DNA of 64,000 nucleotides from Desulfurivibrio alkaliphilus AHT 2 (lineage in GTDB: Bacteria > Desulfobacterota > Desulfobulbia > Desulfobulbales > Desulfurivibrionaceae): NCBI RefSeq assembly GCF_000092205.1, contig NC_014216.1:1679742-1743741 (forward strand). Direction: 5' to 3'. Below, in pieces: positions 5,050 through 63,207 of this stretch. Under the pieces are notes generated by a model. That model saw nothing but the letters and a program-made list of their open reading frames with translations, had not been told where the DNA came from and made no database searches. Position 1 is the stretch's first letter. Each line of letters begins with the position of its first letter. A program made the position numbers and the translations under genes.

Positions 5050-5160
5050 TTTGTTTCTCCTAAGCTTACGTCTTAGTAATACTGAATAATCTCAAATCTT
5101 CGACAACGCCAACCCAGCATCCATTGCCAACCCAGTTAGCACCCGGTCGCTCACTGTGGA

Positions 5161-5270
5161 GTAAAAGCTGTTGCAGCAGTGCAAATACGGGCAAGCGGTC
5201 CGGCGCCGCGTACCTCAGGTACGCAAGCCGGGCCGATCGCCCGATGTTGCGCTGCTGCAGCAGCTTTTAC
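5161..5270. repeat. palindromic repeat element, copy A (rpsK-rpsD)
   Basis: A 110-base near-palindrome with perfect 10-base outer arms (GTAAAAGCTG / CAGCTTTTAC), further pairing inside (GCAGCAG-type segments) and a core with GCGTACCTCAGGTACGC. The core matches copies B to E, while the outer arms are unlike theirs but match each other. On the coding strand the element begins at the last base of the rpsK stop codon TAG. Core orientation is the same as copy D and opposite to B, C, E and F. Confidence 0.85.
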
Positions 5271-18498: not shown

Positions 18499-18520
18499 GA
18501 TTTTTCCTTACGTCGCCTGC

Positions 18521-19711
18521 TTAAGCGATGATCTTATTAATAACCCCGGCGCCCACGGTACGGCCGCCTTCACGGATGGCAAAGCGCAGGCCCTCATCCA
18601 TGGCGATGGGGGTGATCAGTTCGGCTTCGACGGTGACGTTGTCACCGGGCATTACCATCTCCACGCCCTCGCCCAGGGTCACAACCCCGGTCACGTCGGT
18701 GGTCCGGAAGTAAAACTGCGGCCGGTAACCGTTGAAAAACGGGGTATGGCGGCCACCTTCTTCCTTGCTCAGAATATAGCACTCGGCCTGGAACTTGGTG
18801 TGCGGGGTGATGCTCCCCGGCTTGGCCAGAACCTGTCCGCGCTCAATCTCGTCACGCTTGGTGCCGCGCAGCAGTACGCCCACGTTGTCGCCGGCCTGAC
18901 CCTCATCAAGGATCTTGCGGAACATCTCGACCCCGGTCACCGTGGTCTTCTGGGTCGGGCGGATACCGACAATCTCGATCTCCTCACCCACCTTAACCAC
19001 CCCGCGCTCGATCCGACCGGTGGCCACCGTGCCGCGACCGGAGATGGAGAACACGTCCTCCACCGGCATCAGAAAAGGCAGATCCACGTCACGCTTGGGC
19101 TCGGGAATAAAGCTGTCGCAGGCTGCAACCAGGTCCCAGATCGGCTTGGTGGCCGCTTCGTCCTCGGGGTTCTCCAGGGCCTTCAGGGCACTGCCGTGGA
19201 TGATCGGGGTATCGTCGCCGGGGAAGTCGTACTTGCTCAACAACTCGCGCAGCTCCATCTCCACCAGCTCGATCAGCTCCGGATCATCTACCATGTCGCA
19301 CTTGTTGAGGAATACCACGATGGACGGGACACCTACCTGGCGAGCCAGCAGGATGTGCTCCCGGGTCTGCGGCATGGGGCCGTCGTCGGCGCCCACCACC
19401 AGGATGGCGCCGTCCATCTGCGCCGCACCGGTGATCATGTTTTTAATATAGTCGGCGTGACCCGGGCAGTCCACATGGGCATAGTGGCGAGAATCGGACT
19501 CGTACTCCACATGGGAAGTGGCGATGGTAATACCGCGCTCCTTCTCTTCCGGCGCCTTGTCAATCTGATCAAACGCCGTTGCGTTGGCGTAACCCTTGGT
19601 CGACAGCACCCGGGTAAGAGCCGCCGTCAGCGTCGTCTTTCCGTGGTCGATATGGCCGATGGTGCCGATGTTGACATGCGGCTTCTTGCGTTCAAATTTC
19701 TCTTTTGCCAT
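18521..19711 (-). CDS. tuf: elongation factor Tu, copy 1 (str operon)
   Basis: EF-Tu of 396 residues, the GTPase that brings aminoacyl-tRNA to the ribosome. The P-loop [17 protein letters not shown] and NKCDMVDD are intact. The encoded protein is identical to that of copy 2 at 35787. In the bases I compared, the DNA differs only at 18522, 18524 and 18539 near the 3' end, all silent or in the stop codon (TAA here, TGA in copy 2). It lies between fusA and rpsJ. Confidence 0.98.
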
Positions 19712-34866: not shown

Positions 34867-35014
34867 GTAATCGTTCAGCAGCACCGCACCTTCGGGCGAT
34901 CAGCCAGGCTTGAGTACCGCTGTACGCGGCGCCTGGCTGCTTGCCCGAATCTGCGGCACTGCTGAACGATTACGGCCCGTTAGACCGGTAAGTTAGTACC
35001 TGGTGATCGGTTAC
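34867..35014. repeat. palindromic repeat element, copy B with extension (secE-nusG)
   Basis: The core 34867-34973 has perfect 15-base outer arms (GTAATCGTTCAGCAG and its complement), then CGGGC / GCCCG and a centre GAGTACCGCTGTACGC. It continues into about 41 bases, beginning GGCCCGTTAGACCGGTAAG, that also follow copy C. The shared extension ends at a GGTTAC. The next bases form a further hairpin (GGTGA, TTACG, CGTAA, TCACC) to 35030. Nothing else is recognised before secE at 35127. Confidence 0.85.
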
Positions 35015-35757: not shown

Positions 35758-35786
35758 GGTCCTGTCTTCCCTTTAACGCTGCCAAA

Positions 35787-36977
35787 TCAGGCGATGATCT
35801 TATTGATAACCCCGGCGCCCACGGTACGGCCGCCTTCACGGATGGCAAAGCGCAGGCCCTCATCCATGGCGATGGGGGTGATCAGTTCGGCTTCGACGGT
35901 GACGTTGTCACCGGGCATTACCATCTCCACGCCCTCGCCCAGGGTCACAACCCCGGTCACGTCGGTGGTCCGGAAGTAAAACTGCGGCCGGTAACCGTTG
36001 AAAAACGGGGTATGGCGGCCACCTTCTTCCTTGCTCAGAATATAGCACTCGGCCTGGAACTTGGTGTGCGGGGTGATGCTCCCCGGCTTGGCCAGAACCT
36101 GTCCGCGCTCAATCTCGTCACGCTTGGTGCCGCGCAGCAGTACGCCCACGTTGTCGCCGGCCTGACCCTCATCAAGGATCTTGCGGAACATCTCGACCCC
36201 GGTCACCGTGGTCTTCTGGGTCGGGCGGATACCGACAATCTCGATCTCCTCACCCACCTTAACCACCCCGCGCTCGATCCGACCGGTGGCCACCGTGCCG
36301 CGACCGGAGATGGAGAACACGTCCTCCACCGGCATCAGAAAAGGCAGATCCACGTCACGCTTGGGCTCGGGAATAAAGCTGTCGCAGGCTGCAACCAGGT
36401 CCCAGATCGGCTTGGTGGCCGCTTCGTCCTCGGGGTTCTCCAGGGCCTTCAGGGCACTGCCGTGGATGATCGGGGTATCGTCGCCGGGGAAGTCGTACTT
36501 GCTCAACAACTCGCGCAGCTCCATCTCCACCAGCTCGATCAGCTCCGGATCATCTACCATGTCGCACTTGTTGAGGAATACCACGATGGACGGGACACCT
36601 ACCTGGCGAGCCAGCAGGATGTGCTCCCGGGTCTGCGGCATGGGGCCGTCGTCGGCGCCCACCACCAGGATGGCGCCGTCCATCTGCGCCGCACCGGTGA
36701 TCATGTTTTTAATATAGTCGGCGTGACCCGGGCAGTCCACATGGGCATAGTGGCGAGAATCGGACTCGTACTCCACATGGGAAGTGGCGATGGTAATACC
36801 GCGCTCCTTCTCTTCCGGCGCCTTGTCAATCTGATCAAACGCCGTTGCGTTGGCGTAACCCTTGGTCGACAGCACCCGGGTAAGAGCCGCCGTCAGCGTC
36901 GTCTTTCCGTGGTCGATATGGCCGATGGTGCCGATGTTGACATGCGGCTTCTTGCGTTCAAATTTCTCTTTTGCCAT
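35787..36977 (-). CDS. tuf: elongation factor Tu, copy 2 (tRNA-linked)
   Basis: EF-Tu of 396 residues, with the same protein sequence as copy 1 at 18521. The DNA match runs from about base 35806 to 36999, including about 22 bases upstream with the ribosome site. The three differences seen are confined to the last 19 bases of the gene. It follows four tRNA genes in the tyrU/tufB-type arrangement known from E. coli and is likely co-transcribed with them. Confidence 0.98.
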
Positions 36978-52654: not shown

Positions 52655-52804
52655 GTAAGCGTTCAGCAGCACCGCATCTTCGGGCGATCAGCCAGGCTTA
52701 CGTACAAGTGTACGCTGCACCTGGCTGATTGCCCGAAACTGCGGCACTGCTAAACGCTTACGGCCCGTTATACCAGTAGGTTAGTACCCCTGGTGAACGG
52801 TTAC
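52655..52804. repeat. palindromic repeat element, copy C with extension (ftsQ-ftsA)
   Basis: The core 52655-52761 has arms GTAAGCGTTCAGCAG / CTGCTAAACGCTTAC (one mismatch), then CGGGC / GCCCG and a centre CGTACAAGTGTACG. It continues through the same extension as copy B (GGCCCGTTATACCAGTAGG onward) to GGTTAC. On the coding strand the element starts GTAACCG, and these bases include the ftsQ stop codon TAA. Confidence 0.85.
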
Positions 52805-56076: not shown

Positions 56077-57181
56077 TTTTTACTCCCCCCAGAGCCAGGC
56101 CCTGGGCTATGATTTCAGCAGCCGCCTGCGGCCGGGCCAACGCCCTGGCCTGGCGCGCCATTTCTTCCCGCAACGTAGAATCGGCCAGCAGTTCCCTGAT
56201 CTGCCCGGCCAACTCCCGGGGGCTCAGATCCTTTTCCAGCCGCAGCCGGGCCGCCCCCTGCCCCACCATGATCTCGGCGTTGAGGCGTTGGTGGTCATCG
56301 GCGGCATAAGGGTATGGAATCAGCAGCGACGCCTTGCCGAACAAGGCCAGTTCCGCCAGCGTGGTGGCCCCGGCCCGGGACACCACCAGGTCGGCAGCAA
56401 GGTAAGCCGCCGCCATATCATCAACAAAATCCTCCACCTGCGCTTCAATCCCGGCCTGCCGGTAGCGTTCGGCGACCATGGCCCGATCCTGCCGCCCGGT
56501 CTGGTGGCGGATAGCCGGGTGTATGCCCTGGGCGGCCAGCAGAGTGGCCGCCTCAACCATCAGCAAGTTGACCCGGTGGGCCCCCAAGCTGCCGCCCAGC
56601 ACCAGCAAGCGCGGCCGCTGATCTTCCCTGCCGCCGCCGGCATCCCCGGCGCTCTCCGCCGCCGCCAGCAGTTCTCGCCGCAGGGGATTGCCCACCAGGC
56701 TGGCCCTGGCCGCCGGAAAATGTCCCCGCTGATCCGGCAGGGCAAGGAATACCCGGTGTACAAAACGGCCCAGCAGCCGATTGGTCAACCCCGGCACCGA
56801 ATTCTGCTCATGGATGCAGGCCGGCACCCGTAACATCCTGGCCGCCAGCAGCACCGGGCCGGTAACATAGCCACCGACCCCCAGCACCAGGTGGGGCTTA
56901 AACTCCCGCAGCAGCCCCAGCGCCTGCCAGAACCCCACCGGGATACGGGCCAGGGAGGCGAGCCGGCCCGGCCAGGAAATTCCTTTCAAGCCGCTGCCGG
57001 TCAGGGTGGCCTGGCGGTAAGGCTTGCCGGTAAGGGCTCGGCGCTCAATATCGCGGCCTGTACCGATAAAGAGCACTTCGCTGCCGGGGTAACGGGCCAG
57101 CAATTCATCGGCCACGGCAATCCCGGGGAACAGATGGCCGCCGGTACCGCCGCCGGTGATTACCAGCCTGAAAGCCCTCAT
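56066..57181 (-). CDS. murG: lipid II synthase MurG (GlcNAc transferase)
   Basis: MurG of 371 residues, which adds GlcNAc to lipid I at the inner membrane face. The N-terminal glycine loop [52 protein letters not shown] and the UDP-GlcNAc site [34 protein letters not shown] are intact. Its ATG overlaps the murD stop by four bases, leaving no room for ftsW. Confidence 0.97.
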
Positions 57182-58677
57182 GCAAACATCGCCTCCATCG
57201 CCGGGCAGTGGCCCACCGCCCCGCCGCCGAGGGCATTATCCTCCGCCAGTTCCCGGACGGCCCGGCGAAAGACTTCGCCCCGCTGAGCATAACCGGCAAA
57301 CATGTCGAAACTGGCGCAGGCCGGGGAAAGCAGCACCGCCTCGCCGGCCGCCGCCAGTTGAGTGGCGATGCGCACCGCCGACGGCAGATCAGCCGCCTCG
57401 GTGACCGGCACCGCCGGGGCCAGAGCGGCCCGCATTTTCTCCCGAGCCGACCCGATCAACACCACGGCCCGTACCTTTTCTTTAATCGCCGGCAACAGCA
57501 GCCGGTAATCACCGCCTTTGTCCAGCCCCCCGGCAATGAGCACCACCGGGCCGGGCAGACCCTGCAGAGCCGAGATTACCGCCCCGATGTTGGTGGCCTT
57601 GGAGTCGTCATAGTAGCGCACCCCGGCCACCGTTGCCACCAGGGCCAGCCGGTGGGGCAGGGCCTGAAAGGCGGCCAGGGCCGGCCCCACCGCCGCCGGC
57701 GGACAACCGGCCAGGCGGGCCGCCAGCACCGCCGCCAGTGCATTCTGGCGGTTGGGTTCCACCGCCAGCTCATTAGCCGGCAAGGGATATTCCTCGCAGT
57801 GCTCATCCTCTTGGGTCAAGCAAAGCCGGAGACCATCCACCGGCGGCCCCGGCGCCGCCTCACGGCTCTGGTTGGCGGCCAGCGGCCCGGCCATTCCCCG
57901 GCCGCCGAAACCGAAAACCCTGGAGGCCGGCGGCCCGGCCGCCAGCAGGCGGAGAATTTCCGGATCGTCGCGGTTGATCACCGCCCACTGCTCCCTACCC
58001 TGGTTGGCCACTATCCGCCATTTGGAAGCGGCATAGGCGGCATAATCGGGGTAACGGTCGAGATGATCCGGCGAAATATTGAGCAATACCGCGATATCGG
58101 GGCTAAACTTCCCGGCACTGTCCAGCTGGAAGCTGCTGACCTCCAGCACCGCCCAATCCGCCTCCTGGGGTCCGGCCAGGTATTCGCACAACGGGGTACC
58201 CAGGTTACCCCCCACAAACACATTACGCCCCGCGGCCCGCAACAACTCCCCGACCAGGGTGGTAACCGTGCTCTTGCCGTTGGTACCGGTCACGGCGATT
58301 ACCGGGGTGCGCAGATACTCCGGCGCCAGCGCCAGTTCGCCGATAATCGGCACCCCGGCGGCCCGGGCGGCATCAAGGGCGGGAATATCCAGGGGGATGC
58401 CGGGACTCAGCAGAATAACATCGACCCCGGCAAAAAGCTGCGGGGAATGACCGCCCAGTTCGCAATAAACACCCCGTTCCTGCAGCCACTGCACCATCCG
58501 GCTGGCCGGCGCCACTGCCCGCCCCCCTTCCGATACCGAAATCCTGACCCCCTGCTTAACCAGAAAACGCGCCGCCGCACAGCCGGATTTACCCAAGCCC
58601 ACCACCAGCACATGTTTTCCGGTCAAACTACCTGCAAAAGTCATATCATCGCCCGCCATTAGCATTAGCATTAGCAT
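57178..58677 (-). CDS. murD: UDP-N-acetylmuramoylalanine-D-glutamate ligase MurD
   Basis: MurD of up to 499 residues, adding D-Glu. VLVVGLGKSGCAAARFL starts the UDP domain, VTGTNGKSTVTTLVGELL is the ATP loop, EPNRQNALAAVLAARLAG is the central-domain motif and YYDDSKATNIGA is in the C-terminal domain. The start is uncertain: an ATGCTA unit repeated three times gives several in-frame ATGs, none with a clear ribosome site. MTFAGSL at 58644 is the closest to family length. Repeat D ends 11 bases upstream. Confidence 0.95.
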   Translation of the reverse strand: MLMLMLMAGDDMTFAGSLTGKHVLVVGLGKSGCAAARFLVKQGVRISVSEGGRAVAPASRMVQWLQERGVYCELGGHSPQLFAGVDVILLSPGIPLDIPALDAARAAGVPIIGELALAPEYLRTPVIAVTGTNGKSTVTTLVGELLRAAGRNVFVGGNLGTPLCEYLAGPQEADWAVLEVSSFQLDSAGKFSPDIAVLLNISPDHLDRYPDYAAYAASKWRIVANQGREQWAVINRDDPEILRLLAAGPPASRVFGFGGRGMAGPLAANQSREAAPGPPVDGLRLCLTQEDEHCEEYPLPANELAVEPNRQNALAAVLAARLAGCPPAAVGPALAAFQALPHRLALVATVAGVRYYDDSKATNIGAVISALQGLPGPVVLIAGGLDKGGDYRLLLPAIKEKVRAVVLIGSAREKMRAALAPAVPVTEAADLPSAVRIATQLAAAGEAVLLSPACASFDMFAGYAQRGEVFRRAVRELAEDNALGGGAVGHCPAMEAMFA

Positions 58678-58687
58678 ACATCGTTTG

Positions 58688-58796
58688 GTAAGCGGTCACG
58701 GGGTGCCCCAGATTGCGGCAAGCAGACCGGCGCCGCGTACCTCAGTACGCAAGCCGGGCTGATCGCCGCAAGGTGGGGTGCCCCGTGATCGCTTAC
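58688..58796. repeat. palindromic repeat element, copy D (mraY-murD)
   Basis: A 109-base near-palindrome with arms GTAAGCGGTCACGGGGTGCC / GGGTGCCCCGTGATCGCTTAC and a centre GCGTACCTCAGTACGC. The core GGCGCCGCGTAC and CAAGCCGGG matches copies A and E. On the coding strand it begins one base after the mraY stop TGA. It fills the whole mraY-murD gap. Confidence 0.87.
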
Positions 58797-58797
58797 A

Positions 58798-59877
58798 TCA
58801 GCGCAACTTTAGGGTGGCTATGGCCAGCAGCCCCAGGACAATGGAGATAATCCAGAACCGGACCACTATTTTGGGTTCCTGCCAGCCCTTTTTCTCAAAA
58901 TGATGATGGAAAGGGGCCATGAGAAAAATTCTTTTGCCCCCGCTCAATTTATAAAATCCCACCTGGAGGATCACCGACAAGGCCTCCAGGACAAAGATCC
59001 CGCCGACCATGGCCAGCAGAAATTCCTGTTTGGTGATGATCGCCACCATCCCCAAGGCGGCGCCGATGGCCAGGGAACCGGTATCACCCATAAAAACCTG
59101 GGCCGGAAAGGTGTTAAACCAGAGAAAACCCAAACAGGCCCCCACCAGCGCCCCGCTGAACACCGCCACCTCTCCGGCGCCAGGCACATGGGGAATCTGG
59201 AGATAGGACGCCAGCACCGCATGCCCGGCCAGGTAGGAAAACACCAGATAGACGGTGCCGGTAATCACCACCGGCCCGGTAACAAGGCCATCCAAGCCAT
59301 CGGTGAGGTTGACCGCGTTGGAGGCCCCCACCACCACCAGCAAGGCAAACAGGCAGTACCAGGCCCCCAGGTCCGGCCGGAATTCCTTGAAAAAAGGAAA
59401 ACTGAGATGGCCGTCAAAGCCCGGCAACCAGAACAGGCTGGCCACCGCCGCCCCGGCGCCGGCTGCCTGCAGCAAAAGCTTGCCCCGCACTCCCAGGCCC
59501 CGGCTGTTGTTTTTGCGGATCTTGCGCCAGTCGTCATAGGCCCCGATGGCCCCGAACCAGAGCAGTACCGCCAGAATCAGCCAGACAAACAGGTTACCAA
59601 GGTCGACCCAGAGCAGGGTGGTCACCGCCACCGCCACCAGGATCAACATGCCGCCCATGGTGGGCACCCCGCTTTTGGAGTAGTGGCTCTCCGGCCCGTC
59701 TTCGCGGACCACCTGGCCGATCTGGCGCGATTTGAGCCAGGCGATGAAAGGCGGCCCCAGCAGCATTACCATAAAAAACGCGGTCAACGCCGCCCCGATA
59801 CAACGAAAGGTGATATACCGGAAAACGTTGAGTACGCTCAGGTATTCATGCAGAGGATATAACAGATGATAAAGCAT
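58798..59877 (-). CDS. mraY: phospho-MurNAc-pentapeptide transferase MraY
   Basis: MraY of 359 residues, an integral membrane enzyme making lipid I. The aspartate motifs are GAYDDWRKIRKNNSRGLG and NAVNLTDGLDGL; FMGDTGSLAIGAALG and the histidine loop APFHHHFEKKGW complete the active site. About ten membrane spans are visible. Its ATG overlaps the murF stop by one base. Confidence 0.98.
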   Translation of the reverse strand: MLYHLLYPLHEYLSVLNVFRYITFRCIGAALTAFFMVMLLGPPFIAWLKSRQIGQVVREDGPESHYSKSGVPTMGGMLILVAVAVTTLLWVDLGNLFVWLILAVLLWFGAIGAYDDWRKIRKNNSRGLGVRGKLLLQAAGAGAAVASLFWLPGFDGHLSFPFFKEFRPDLGAWYCLFALLVVVGASNAVNLTDGLDGLVTGPVVITGTVYLVFSYLAGHAVLASYLQIPHVPGAGEVAVFSGALVGACLGFLWFNTFPAQVFMGDTGSLAIGAALGMVAIITKQEFLLAMVGGIFVLEALSVILQVGFYKLSGGKRIFLMAPFHHHFEKKGWQEPKIVVRFWIISIVLGLLAIATLKLR

Positions 59878-61529
59878 TATCTCTGTTCCCGCCCGTGGTG
59901 CAAGGCCTCGATGATGGTTTCCATCTGCATGCCGCGGGAGGCCTTGAGCAGCACCAGATCATCGTTTTTAAGCCGGCCTTTGGCGGTTGCCTCCAGCAGC
60001 CAGGCGCCGACTTCCTTCTTGTCCAAGCAGGCCCGTACCTGCCCGGCGTCCATTCCCGCCCGGCGAGCCGCCCGGGCCGTCTCGCCGGCGAATTCACCCA
60101 CGGTCAGCAGATAATCAAATCCCAGCCGGGCCACCTGCTCGCCGATGAAGCGGTGCGCCGCCGGCCCATGACTGCCCAACTCCAGCATGTCCCCCAAAAT
60201 CGCCACCACTTTACGGTTCCGCCGCAGGTTATGCACCGTCTCCAGGGCGGCCAGCATGGAGGATGGATTGGCGTTGTAGGAGTCATCAATCAGCTTCAGG
60301 CCGGCGACAAAAGGCTGAATCCGCAATCGCTTGGCAAAAGGGCGATAACCTTCCAGGCCGGCAACAATTTCCGCTGGACTTACCCCGGCGGCCAGGGCCA
60401 GAGCGGCGGCCGCCAGCGCGTTCTGCACGTTGTGCTCTCCCAGGGCGGCGATATGCACCCTACCTTGCCAACCATCGGCAAGTAAGCGATCACAGGGCAC
60501 CGCATCTTGCGGCGATCGGCCCGGCTTGCGTACTGAGGTACGCGGCGCCGGTCCGCTTGCCACAACCTGCGGCACCCTGTGACCGCTTACCCCATGGCCC
60601 CCGTAATCAGTTACATCGGCAATGGTCAGGGTGAAGCTCATCCCCTCCTCACCGCGGCTGCGCAAGCGGGTGGCCCGCACCGTGGTGCCGGGCTTGCGAC
60701 CGAAGGTTATCCGGCGCTGGGGCAATTTCCCGGCCAGCCGCCAGACCCGGGGGTCGTCCCGGTTGACCACCAGCGTGGTCCAGGGGCGCATGCCGTGGAA
60801 CAGTTCGCCTTTGGCCCGGGCCACCCCGGCAACATCGGTCAAACCGGCCAGGTGGGCCTCCTGGACGTTGGTGATGCAGGCAATATCCGGCTGGGCGATT
60901 TCCGCCATCCGGGCTATTTCACCAAACCGGTTCATCCCCATTTCCAGCACCGCGTACTGGTGGTGCGCATCCACCGCCAACAGGGAAAGGGGTAAGCCAA
61001 TGAGGTTGTTGAGATTGCCGCGGGTTTTCAGCACCCGCTGCCGCCCCCGGCCTTGCTCCATGATGGCGGCGGTCATCTCCTTGACCGTGGTTTTGCCGGA
61101 ACTACCGGTAATGGCCAGCACCTTAAGCCCTTTCATTTGCATCCGGCGGTAATGGGCCAGGTCGCCCAAGGCCTGCAGGGTGTCGGCAACCAGCACCACC
61201 GGAACCGGCAGCGGTTCCTCCGGTGGACTTTCCAGCACCAGGCCGGCGGCCCCTTTGCGCACCACCTCCGCGACAAAGCGGTGACCGTCGAATTTCTCGC
61301 CCCGCAGGGCCACAAAAAGATCCCCGGCCTCAATGGTGCGACTGTCCGAGGAGACCAGGCGAAAAACGGCCTCGGTACGATCACCCCACAGGCGGCCGCC
61401 GGTGGCCAGCAGCACCTGATCAAGGCTCCAGACCGGGTTCTGGGCCAAGGAAAAACCATATCCGAAGGCTGCCCGACGACAGGTTCGCCGCCGGTGCTGT
61501 GTCTCACTCACTGTTCTTGCCGGCTCCAT
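59877..61529 (-). CDS. murF: MurF ligase with an in-frame palindromic repeat insert
   Basis: MurF of 550 residues, against about 450 in E. coli, adding D-Ala-D-Ala to the UDP-MurNAc tripeptide. VLAITGSSGKTTVKEMTAAIM is the ATP loop, VLEMGMNRFGEIARMAEIAQPDIA follows, GEHNVQNALAAAALAL is the central-domain motif and IDDSYNANPSSM lies in the C-terminal domain. Residues 314-349 (VSGHRVPQ onward to VPCDRL) are encoded by repeat copy E and have no counterpart in the family as I know it. An N-terminal extension of about 25 residues is also present. GGGGGGAAG precedes the ATG. The frame stays open through the insert, so the gene looks functional. Confidence 0.95.
   Translation of the reverse strand: MEPARTVSETQHRRRTCRRAAFGYGFSLAQNPVWSLDQVLLATGGRLWGDRTEAVFRLVSSDSRTIEAGDLFVALRGEKFDGHRFVAEVVRKGAAGLVLESPPEEPLPVPVVLVADTLQALGDLAHYRRMQMKGLKVLAITGSSGKTTVKEMTAAIMEQGRGRQRVLKTRGNLNNLIGLPLSLLAVDAHHQYAVLEMGMNRFGEIARMAEIAQPDIACITNVQEAHLAGLTDVAGVARAKGELFHGMRPWTTLVVNRDDPRVWRLAGKLPQRRITFGRKPGTTVRATRLRSRGEEGMSFTLTIADVTDYGGHGVSGHRVPQVVASGPAPRTSVRKPGRSPQDAVPCDRLLADGWQGRVHIAALGEHNVQNALAAAALALAAGVSPAEIVAGLEGYRPFAKRLRIQPFVAGLKLIDDSYNANPSSMLAALETVHNLRRNRKVVAILGDMLELGSHGPAAHRFIGEQVARLGFDYLLTVGEFAGETARAARRAGMDAGQVRACLDKKEVGAWLLEATAKGRLKNDDLVLLKASRGMQMETIIEALHHGREQR
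60482..60590. repeat. palindromic repeat element, copy E, inside murF
   Basis: A full 109-base copy with arms GTAAGCG-TCACAGGG / CCCTGTGA-CGCTTAC and a centre GCGTACTGAGGTACGC; the core GGCGCCG and GGCTTGCG matches copies A and D. It is translated in the murF frame as 36 codons without a stop. The pairing arms remain nearly intact, which suggests a recent arrival or selection on the RNA. Confidence 0.9.
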
Positions 61530-61581: not shown

Positions 61582-63207
61582 TTAACCCGTTGTCGCCAAT
61601 ACCGCCAGCTGTTCTCTTACCTCCCGCCGATCATCAAAATCCAGGCAGCTACCTGCAATTATCTGACTGGTCTCATGCCCCTTGCCGCAAACCAGCACCA
61701 CATCTCCGGAACGGGCGTGGTAAATGGTGTCCCGGATTGCCTGGCGGCGGGAAACAACCAGGTCATAACCCTGGCATGTTGTCCGCCGGTTCAGCGGGGC
61801 CGCCAGCAGGCTTTCCAGCCTGCCCCGCCGCGCGTCCACTGTTGCCAGGCCTCTTTGGATATCGGCCATAATCGCTGCCGGCGCTTCACTGCGGGGATTA
61901 TCGGAGGTCAGAACCACGATGTCCGCCAGCGCGGCCGCCACTTCTCCCATCAGAGGCCGCTTGGCCCGATCCCGATCACCGCCGCAACCAAAGACGACCA
62001 CCAGCCGGCCCGTCGCCAGGCGGCGCAGGGCCTTCAAGACATGCCCCAAGGCATCGGGGGTATGGGCATAATCAACCAGCACCTCCACCCCCCGCCGCGA
62101 GCGGAAGCGTTCCAGGCGCCCCGGGGGCGGCGCGGCGTCGGCCAGGGCGGCGGCGATGGTTGCCGGGGTCATCCCCAGGGCCAACCCCACCCCGGCCACA
62201 CCCAGGAGATTATCCAGGTTAAAATCGCCCACCAGCGTTGAGGAGAGTCGCCACGCTCCCTCGCTGCTTTGCAGTTCAGCTTCGATGCCGGCCAGGCTCA
62301 GGCGGCGGCGCAGCAGGCGCAGCTCGTTACCGGCAGCCCCGCAACGCCACAGCCGCACCTCGCCGGCCTTGGGCCGACGCCGGCAACCTGGCGGCAACAC
62401 CCGGGGCGACAGCTCGTCAATCAACCGCTGGTTCCAGCAATCCAGGCTCGCATCGTCCTGTTCCGCCCGGCCGCTCAATACCACTGCAGCGGCGCCGGGC
62501 TTGAGATAACGATTGAAAAGCAGTTTTTTACCGGCGAAGTAACTCTCCATATCGCCGTGGTAGTCCAGATGTTCATGGCTAAGATTGGTAAACAGGGCCG
62601 CATCGAAGGCAATTCCCGCCACCCGCTGTTGCTCCAGGGCATGGGAGGAAACCTCCATGATCACGTGACTGACCCCGGCCTCGGCCATCTCCCGCAGCAG
62701 GGGTTGCAGACTTTCCGGATCCGGCGTGGTATGCGTGGCCGGCAAGACCCGGTTGCGATAGCGATAGTTGACCGTACCGATTACCCCGGGCTCACCGCCG
62801 GCCCGTCGGATCAAATCTTCCAGCAGGTAGGAAGCGGTGGTCTTCCCGTTGGTGCCGGTGATCCCGATCATGACCATTTCTTGCGCCGGGAAACCTCGCA
62901 GCGCTGCGCACAGGCGGCCGAAGGCGGCCCGGGTGTCGGCGGTGGCCAGGTGCAGCACCTCCGGCGCCTTTTCCGTCGGCAGGCGGCAACCCGGTTGACA
63001 GAGCACCACCCGGCAGCCCTGCTTTACTGCGGCAGCGAGGAAATCATGACCATCCACCCGGCTGCCCGGCAGGGCGACAAACAGCGAACCGGGCCCGGCG
63101 CGGCGTGAATCGGCGGTAACAGTCGTTACCTCCAACTCGGCGCTCGCCCCTTCGGCCAGCACTGTATAGTCAACCGCCGCCGCCTTGATCAATTGCCGCA
63201 CCTTCAT
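61582..63207 (-). CDS. murE: MurE ligase, meso-diaminopimelate-type
   Basis: MurE of 541 residues, adding the third peptide residue. IGITGTNGKTTASYLLEDLI is the ATP loop, HTTPDPESLQPLLREMAEAGVSHVIMEVSSHALEQQRV follows, and LVGDFNLDNLLGVAGVGLAL is the central-domain motif. TSDNPRSEAP contains the DNPR motif that marks meso-diaminopimelate rather than lysine as substrate. It lies between ftsI and murF. Confidence 0.97.
   Translation of the reverse strand: MKVRQLIKAAAVDYTVLAEGASAELEVTTVTADSRRAGPGSLFVALPGSRVDGHDFLAAAVKQGCRVVLCQPGCRLPTEKAPEVLHLATADTRAAFGRLCAALRGFPAQEMVMIGITGTNGKTTASYLLEDLIRRAGGEPGVIGTVNYRYRNRVLPATHTTPDPESLQPLLREMAEAGVSHVIMEVSSHALEQQRVAGIAFDAALFTNLSHEHLDYHGDMESYFAGKKLLFNRYLKPGAAAVVLSGRAEQDDASLDCWNQRLIDELSPRVLPPGCRRRPKAGEVRLWRCGAAGNELRLLRRRLSLAGIEAELQSSEGAWRLSSTLVGDFNLDNLLGVAGVGLALGMTPATIAAALADAAPPPGRLERFRSRRGVEVLVDYAHTPDALGHVLKALRRLATGRLVVVFGCGGDRDRAKRPLMGEVAAALADIVVLTSDNPRSEAPAAIMADIQRGLATVDARRGRLESLLAAPLNRRTTCQGYDLVVSRRQAIRDTIYHARSGDVVLVCGKGHETSQIIAGSCLDFDDRREVREQLAVLATTG

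Follow-up and report, generated by a model that had tools for sequence, protein, structure and literature searches.

The murF gene of Desulfurivibrio alkaliphilus AHT 2 is interrupted in frame by a palindromic element of 133 bp, which is bordered by an exact 8-bp target duplication and is absent, together with one copy of that duplication, from murF of two relatives. These observations are very probably explained by the transposition of a non-autonomous palindromic MITE with IS66-type ends into murF, with duplication of 8 bp of the target and a gene that is still read through. The stretch of DNA analysed here (the window, 64,000 nucleotides) corresponds to positions 1679742-1743741 of a genome that consists of a single contig of 3,097,763 bp (3.10 Mb).

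The element in murF and its empty site

The gene belongs to a mur cluster in which all genes lie on the minus strand, and the features concerned are as follows (window positions).

61582-63207, minus strand: murE
59877-61529, minus strand: murF (UDP-N-acetylmuramoyl-tripeptide--D-alanyl-D-alanine ligase), 550 aa
58798-59877, minus strand: mraY
57178-58677, minus strand: murD
60615-60622, minus strand: 8-bp target duplication (TTGCCGAT), first copy in murF sense
60482-60614, minus strand: complete palindromic element, 133 bp, in murF sense GTAACTGATTACGGGGGCCATGGGGTAAGCGG...CGCTTAC, coding for residues 306-349 plus one base
60592-60614, minus strand: end arm outside the palindrome, 23 bp, starting GTAAC in murF sense
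60482-60591, minus strand: palindrome, 110 nt, delimited by its fold, its frame and a covariance-model match of 127.2 bits
60474-60481, minus strand: 8-bp target duplication (TTGCCGAT), second copy in murF sense

MurF has the full set of three Mur ligase domains (Pfam Mur_ligase, Mur_ligase_M and Mur_ligase_C), and TIGR01143 matches the protein at 402.6 bits, against a cut-off of 288.6, in two stretches with the insert between them; the insertion thus sits within the gene of an essential enzyme with MurF sequence on either side, as had been proposed. No second MurF was found in the genome, where the next match to the MurF protein is a copy of the repeat. The 110-nt palindrome has an RNA fold of -82.9 kcal/mol, and the murF frame reads through it as VSGHRVPQVVASGPAPRTSVRKPGRSPQDAVPCDRL without a stop, so that the open frame which the first-pass annotation claimed over this palindrome is borne out.

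An exact 8-bp direct repeat, ATCGGCAA, lies at both borders of the element (60474-60481 and 60615-60622). The net insertion is therefore 133 + 8 = 141 bp, or 47 codons, at codon 305/306; the first-pass annotation was right that the insertion is in frame but too short in allotting it 36 codons, as the element extends to 60614 and the duplication adds to it. When compared as DNA, murF of genome G002 and murF of genome G001, both of the same genus, are each exactly 141 bp shorter at this site. Where the filled site consists of TTGCCGAT, the element (GTAACTGATTACGGGGGCCATGGGGTAAGCGG...CGCTTAC) and TTGCCGAT again, G002 has the single target TCGCCGAT, with the remainder of murF immediately behind it. 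This exact absence from two relatives marks the insert as an in-frame transposition and not a native MurF segment. The genomes are probably those of Desulfurivibrio sp. AMeS2 (G002) and the Desulfobulbaceae MAG CSSed10_361 (G001), and a third one considered below is probably the Deltaproteobacteria MAG RIFOXYD12_FULL_56_24 (G013). In the three same-genus MurF proteins that align (88%, 78% and 73% identity in the N-terminal part), SFTL passes straight into the following strand and the AHT 2 protein has 47 residues more; the segment is thus missing from close relatives, as the insertion reading predicted, and a conserved segment of the same length, which would have contradicted it, was sought in these aligning proteins and not found. 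Elsewhere in the genome there is a second 133-bp element (647571-647703) with its own exact 8-bp repeat, and two other copies are 96% identical to the murF copy over 110 nt.

According to the proposed explanation, the element would have transposed into murF at codon 305/306, duplicating 8 bp of target, and the gene would still be read through because the element and the duplication together come to 141 bp and are free of stops in the given orientation and frame. Ribosomes reading through the hairpin would produce a MurF with 47 extra residues, emerging at the turn between the last strands of the central ATP-binding domain and the conserved GEHN motif. At the insertion site, the relatives and the solved MurF proteins have only a short turn or connection between apparent beta strands; the insert may lie at the surface. 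An AlphaFold2 model of MurF, for which the Mur ligases encoded in the window were aligned, had a mean pLDDT of 47.3 and was unusable at the insert; MurF sequences sought in viral contigs for a deeper alignment were not found there. To judge from the gene sequence, the insert is probably translated and tolerated in an active enzyme, since this is the sole MurF found in a free-living organism and must still work. Tryptic peptides predicted for the insert-bearing protein are VPQVVASGPAPR, SPQDAVPCDR and LLADGWQGR.

The palindrome family and its IS66-type ends

The murF palindrome had been assigned to a repeat family, and this was confirmed with a covariance model built from 25 copies, which gave at least 150 matches in the AHT 2 genome (weakest among the matches listed, E = 4e-10) and five copies in the window, far more than chance would give. 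Some window copies, found by other means, lie outside the covariance matches listed, so that the true number is higher and is estimated at well over 150. The copies examined come from stretches around copies, 588 kb in all, and their counts are lower bounds. Besides the murF copy, the window holds the following.

58687-58796, plus strand: closest neighbouring copy, in the interval between murD and mraY; orientation opposite to that of the murF copy, identity with it 92%
52655-52804 (genome 1732396-1732545), minus strand: 150-bp copy lying at the 3' end of a gene that takes its stop from the element's TAA; target duplication 7/8
34867-35014 (genome 1714608 onward), minus strand: 148-bp copy with an exact 8-bp duplication, CGTTAAAC
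5160-5270, plus strand: further copy, 93 bits

A 300-nt direct repeat in the window (18510-18809 and 35776-36075, 97% identical) does not overlap with the palindrome family.

The arms of the palindrome covary, with 98.4% of cells paired and changes on both sides in 29 of 42 pairs, far above shuffled and slid controls. Where the duplication is clear, copies measure 107-108 bp (pure palindrome), 133-144 bp or 148-154 bp (one side having a longer arm), and one measures 170 bp. Two adjacent wobble pairs (U-G and G-U; columns 18-19 and 131-132 of alignment A3) are kept in about 83% of copies, which leaves the palindrome imperfect as DNA and paired as the RNA of one strand. The exact core pattern is restricted, among 84,980 genomes, to Desulfurivibrio and its relatives, the named genomes with the repeat being Desulfurivibrio sp. 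AMeS2 and two MAGs (one labelled Desulfobulbaceae, the other Deltaproteobacteria), and viral contigs gave no exact core match. At least 101 copies occur in each of G001, G002 and G013, 31 in G003, 36 in G007 and 60 weaker ones in G027; most other relatives have few or none.

The mode of movement is suggested by the borders. Each copy was taken from GTAA to TTAC, and the 8 bases outside were compared for 168 copies: identical flanking 8-mers were seen in 25 of these, and 14 more agreed at 7 of 8 positions (39 at 7/8 or better), where random pairing of left and right flanks leads one to expect 0.08 exact matches and 0.42 at 7/8 or better. No clear sequence motif is shared by the targets, and many pure-palindrome copies lack a target duplication. 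The element ends have the form GTAAnCGnTCA, the element as a whole running GTAA..TTAC. IS66 elements have inverted repeats of 20-30 bp starting GTAAGCG and generate 8-bp direct repeats (PMC11946415), and both the GTAAGCG-like ends and the 8-bp duplication are found in the element. The ends of the IS66 copies of AHT 2 and G002 read GTAAGCGCTCAGCAAACCCC and GTAAGCGCTCAATGAACCCC. When 293 element ends were compared with the IS66 ends of the AHT 2 genome, the median agreement beyond GTAA was 7-8 of 10 positions, compared with about 3 at random GTAA sites. Five element ends are identical to the IS66 end GTAAGCGCTCAGCA over its first 14 bp, the likeness to IS66 being limited to about 14 bp. With a length of 107-170 bp, non-coding sequence, at least 150 copies, terminal inverted repeats and target site duplication, the element has the features of a MITE; the IS66 hallmarks of its borders and the same ends on the genome's own IS66 together identify it as a palindromic MITE of IS66 type.

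It was presumably mobilized by an IS66 transposase (TnpA/B/C). AHT 2 has one IS66 copy, which is damaged inside (locus L082, genome 2119030-2120562): its tnpA continues into the terminal part of tnpB, and the N-terminal part of the transposase is missing from the frame. The IS66 of G002 looks intact, with tnpA, tnpB and a transposase of 527 aa. Caution comes from G013, where no IS66 match was found, yet at least 101 element copies are present; either the source IS66 was lost there, or a different transposase is the mover, or the copies arrived otherwise.

An element of REP/REPIN type, with a RAYT (Y1) transposase as its mover, might be considered instead, given that the repeat is palindromic, of high copy number and mostly extragenic, and that RAYT-type genes occur in genomes that carry it. 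This is very unlikely, however, as the repeat flanks neither of the two RAYT loci of its own genome (at one of them the nearest copy is about 2.6 kb away), and RAYT-type genes are carried by the low-copy relatives G004 and G014 too. Y1 single-strand transposition, as in IS200/IS605, makes no such duplications, and GTAA..TTAC ends with 8-bp duplications are not its products; copies flanking a RAYT gene and an absence of target duplication, which characterize REP/RAYT systems, are not what is seen here.

Copies inside genes and at gene ends

Insertion into the interior of a gene is rare in this family, having been found for 3 of the 168 AHT 2 copies and for 1 of 70 in the relatives' loci. Codon scores on both flanks place the three AHT 2 copies within real genes, murF and the two listed here by genome position, and all three are in frame.

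308235-308385: copy in pepN (M1 aminopeptidase), 151 bp + 8 = 159 bp, duplication 7/8
2747405: copy in an MbhD/MnhB fusion gene (Pfam MbhD, MbhE and MnhB)

The MbhD/MnhB gene of G002 has an apparent shortened remnant of the same insertion. The pepN gene of G001 has an in-frame copy at a different site from that of AHT 2, in the same reading frame as in murF, and ileS of AMeS2 carries an in-frame copy that ileS of AHT 2 and G001 lacks. With element copies in frame at two sites in two relatives (loci L213 of G001 and L111 of AHT 2), and with long inserts of other sequence in pepN of G002 (L216), one of them almost at the AHT 2 site, pepN seems permissive for insertions. The outer palindrome arms of the ileS copy in AMeS2 (L180:4541-4700) repeat the flank of the host gene itself in inverted orientation (GGAAAAGGTTCG / CGAACCTTTTCC), a pattern that looks as though template switching had used one arm to make the other.

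Frame was also assessed free of bias, by removing the element and one duplication from the 39 copies with a clear duplication and checking the empty sites. Only two of these, in murF and pepN, lie inside a gene, and in each case the frame is kept and open. Open frames over the copies are not enriched (2.19 per copy, 2.02 in shuffles), so that no overall coding selection is seen, although 109 of 129 copies have one particular antisense frame open. The lack of enrichment points to the chance survival of harmless insertions rather than to an element built for translation. Long open frames over the copies at 1860029, 1423543 and 2932328 were not taken as genes, having weak coding scores or no demonstrated homologue.

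These frames bear on the idea that the insert remains untranslated, with normal MurF being made by ribosomes that bypass the hairpin or from an RNA that is spliced or otherwise processed. Bypassing of hairpin-bearing inserts is known from phage T4 gene 60 and from yeast mitochondria, and the mRNA hairpin in murF is very stable (-82.9 kcal/mol). Bypass would need neither a kept frame nor a stop-free insert, however, and both are present in murF; both gene-interior copies identified irrespective of frame turned out to be in frame, as are those of ileS, G001 pepN and the MbhD/MnhB gene. No Rfam match reached the gathering score, and the matches below it were mostly miRNA precursors, as is expected for any long hairpin. 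An untranslated insert is accordingly very improbable. A native, lineage-specific expansion of MurF that resembles the repeat by coincidence, for which the differing loop lengths of Mur ligases might be cited, is refuted by the empty site with its single target copy; the stretch belongs fully to the repeat family, its borders carry an exact 8-bp duplication, and relatives lack exactly 141 bp.

In contrast to the interior copies, most of the others lie at gene 3' ends. A copy is faced by 169 gene 3' ends; in 53 the stop codon is the TAA of the element's terminal GTAA, and in a further 52 it starts 2-10 nt before the element. Within 200 nt of an element, 66% of gene ends fall at -10 to +1, whereas random sites in these stretches give 9%. 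In the rebuilt empty sites the native stop is usually no more than about 20 nt away, and for the three copies at 403628, 1329636 and 2582407 it stands at exactly the same codon. The murF insertion, about 600 nt from the native stop, is thus an exception within its family. A few genes cross the element border and end in some 2 to 30 C-terminal residues encoded by the element (for example at genome 1772236-1772386 and 1273072-1273224).

Given that the targets have no clear motif, the preference for gene ends may stem from targeting or from selection. It can be speculated, with considerable doubt, that the element is adapted to gene ends, inserting at or next to stops by preference and bringing its own TAA, and that in frames which avoid this TAA it becomes a source of protein segments, as in MurF, PepN, IleS and the MbhD/MnhB-like protein. 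On this view it is through such insertions that some 50 genes of one genome have come to end in a transposon's stop codon. The gene-end habit may be more surprising than the murF insertion.

Relation to known systems

The likeness to the Rickettsia palindromic elements (RPEs; Ogata et al., described in PMC10969869 and PMC3767692) that was pointed out in the first-pass annotation holds for the way the element works: RPEs are palindromes of 100-150 bp, in frame in housekeeping genes and read as extra residues, and the murF element is likewise a palindrome of about this size read in frame inside a gene. It does not extend to kinship: no relation to RPEs could be detected, and the element belongs among transposable elements of IS66 type. 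Homology by horizontal transfer, which the shared size class, palindromic form and in-frame position in housekeeping genes might suggest, is exceedingly improbable, since none of the 84,980 genomes outside Desulfurivibrio and its relatives has the exact core pattern, and since a comparison of the insert peptides with the protein models of NCBIfam gave no match up to E 10. The two also differ in organism group, in the clear target duplications and IS-like ends of the Desulfurivibrio element, and in distribution: nearly half of the first-reported RPEs were in ORFs, whereas only a small share of the Desulfurivibrio copies (3/168 and 1/70) is inside genes.

With the IS66 family and IS-derived MITEs the element shares GTAA ends, the 8-bp duplication and about 14 bp of end sequence with the IS66 copies of AHT 2 and G002, but it differs in having no coding capacity and in being an almost complete palindrome with covarying arms. 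In the literature searched, on IS66 MITEs and on MITEs at stop codons, no IS66-derived MITE of this kind and no prior account of the palindrome family were found. ERIC and the Anabaena MITEs (PMC10969869) can similarly be non-autonomous elements read as part of a gene; in the present case the host gene murF is essential and single-copy, and empty site and duplication are both visible.

In-frame MITE fusions are known, their high frequency in Rickettsia has been regarded as special, and the same in other prokaryotes as only conceivable (PMC10969869), other bacterial palindromic repeats being mostly non-coding (PMC3767692). Captures of the murF type were previously known mainly from Rickettsia. 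The present case extends protein-coding palindromes beyond Rickettsia and Wolbachia to a free-living anaerobe, and the mechanism is visible, the transposable element having a defined target duplication and its empty sites being preserved in relatives. As the host genes are essential and the organism can be cultured, the tolerance of an enzyme for such a parasitic segment is directly testable.
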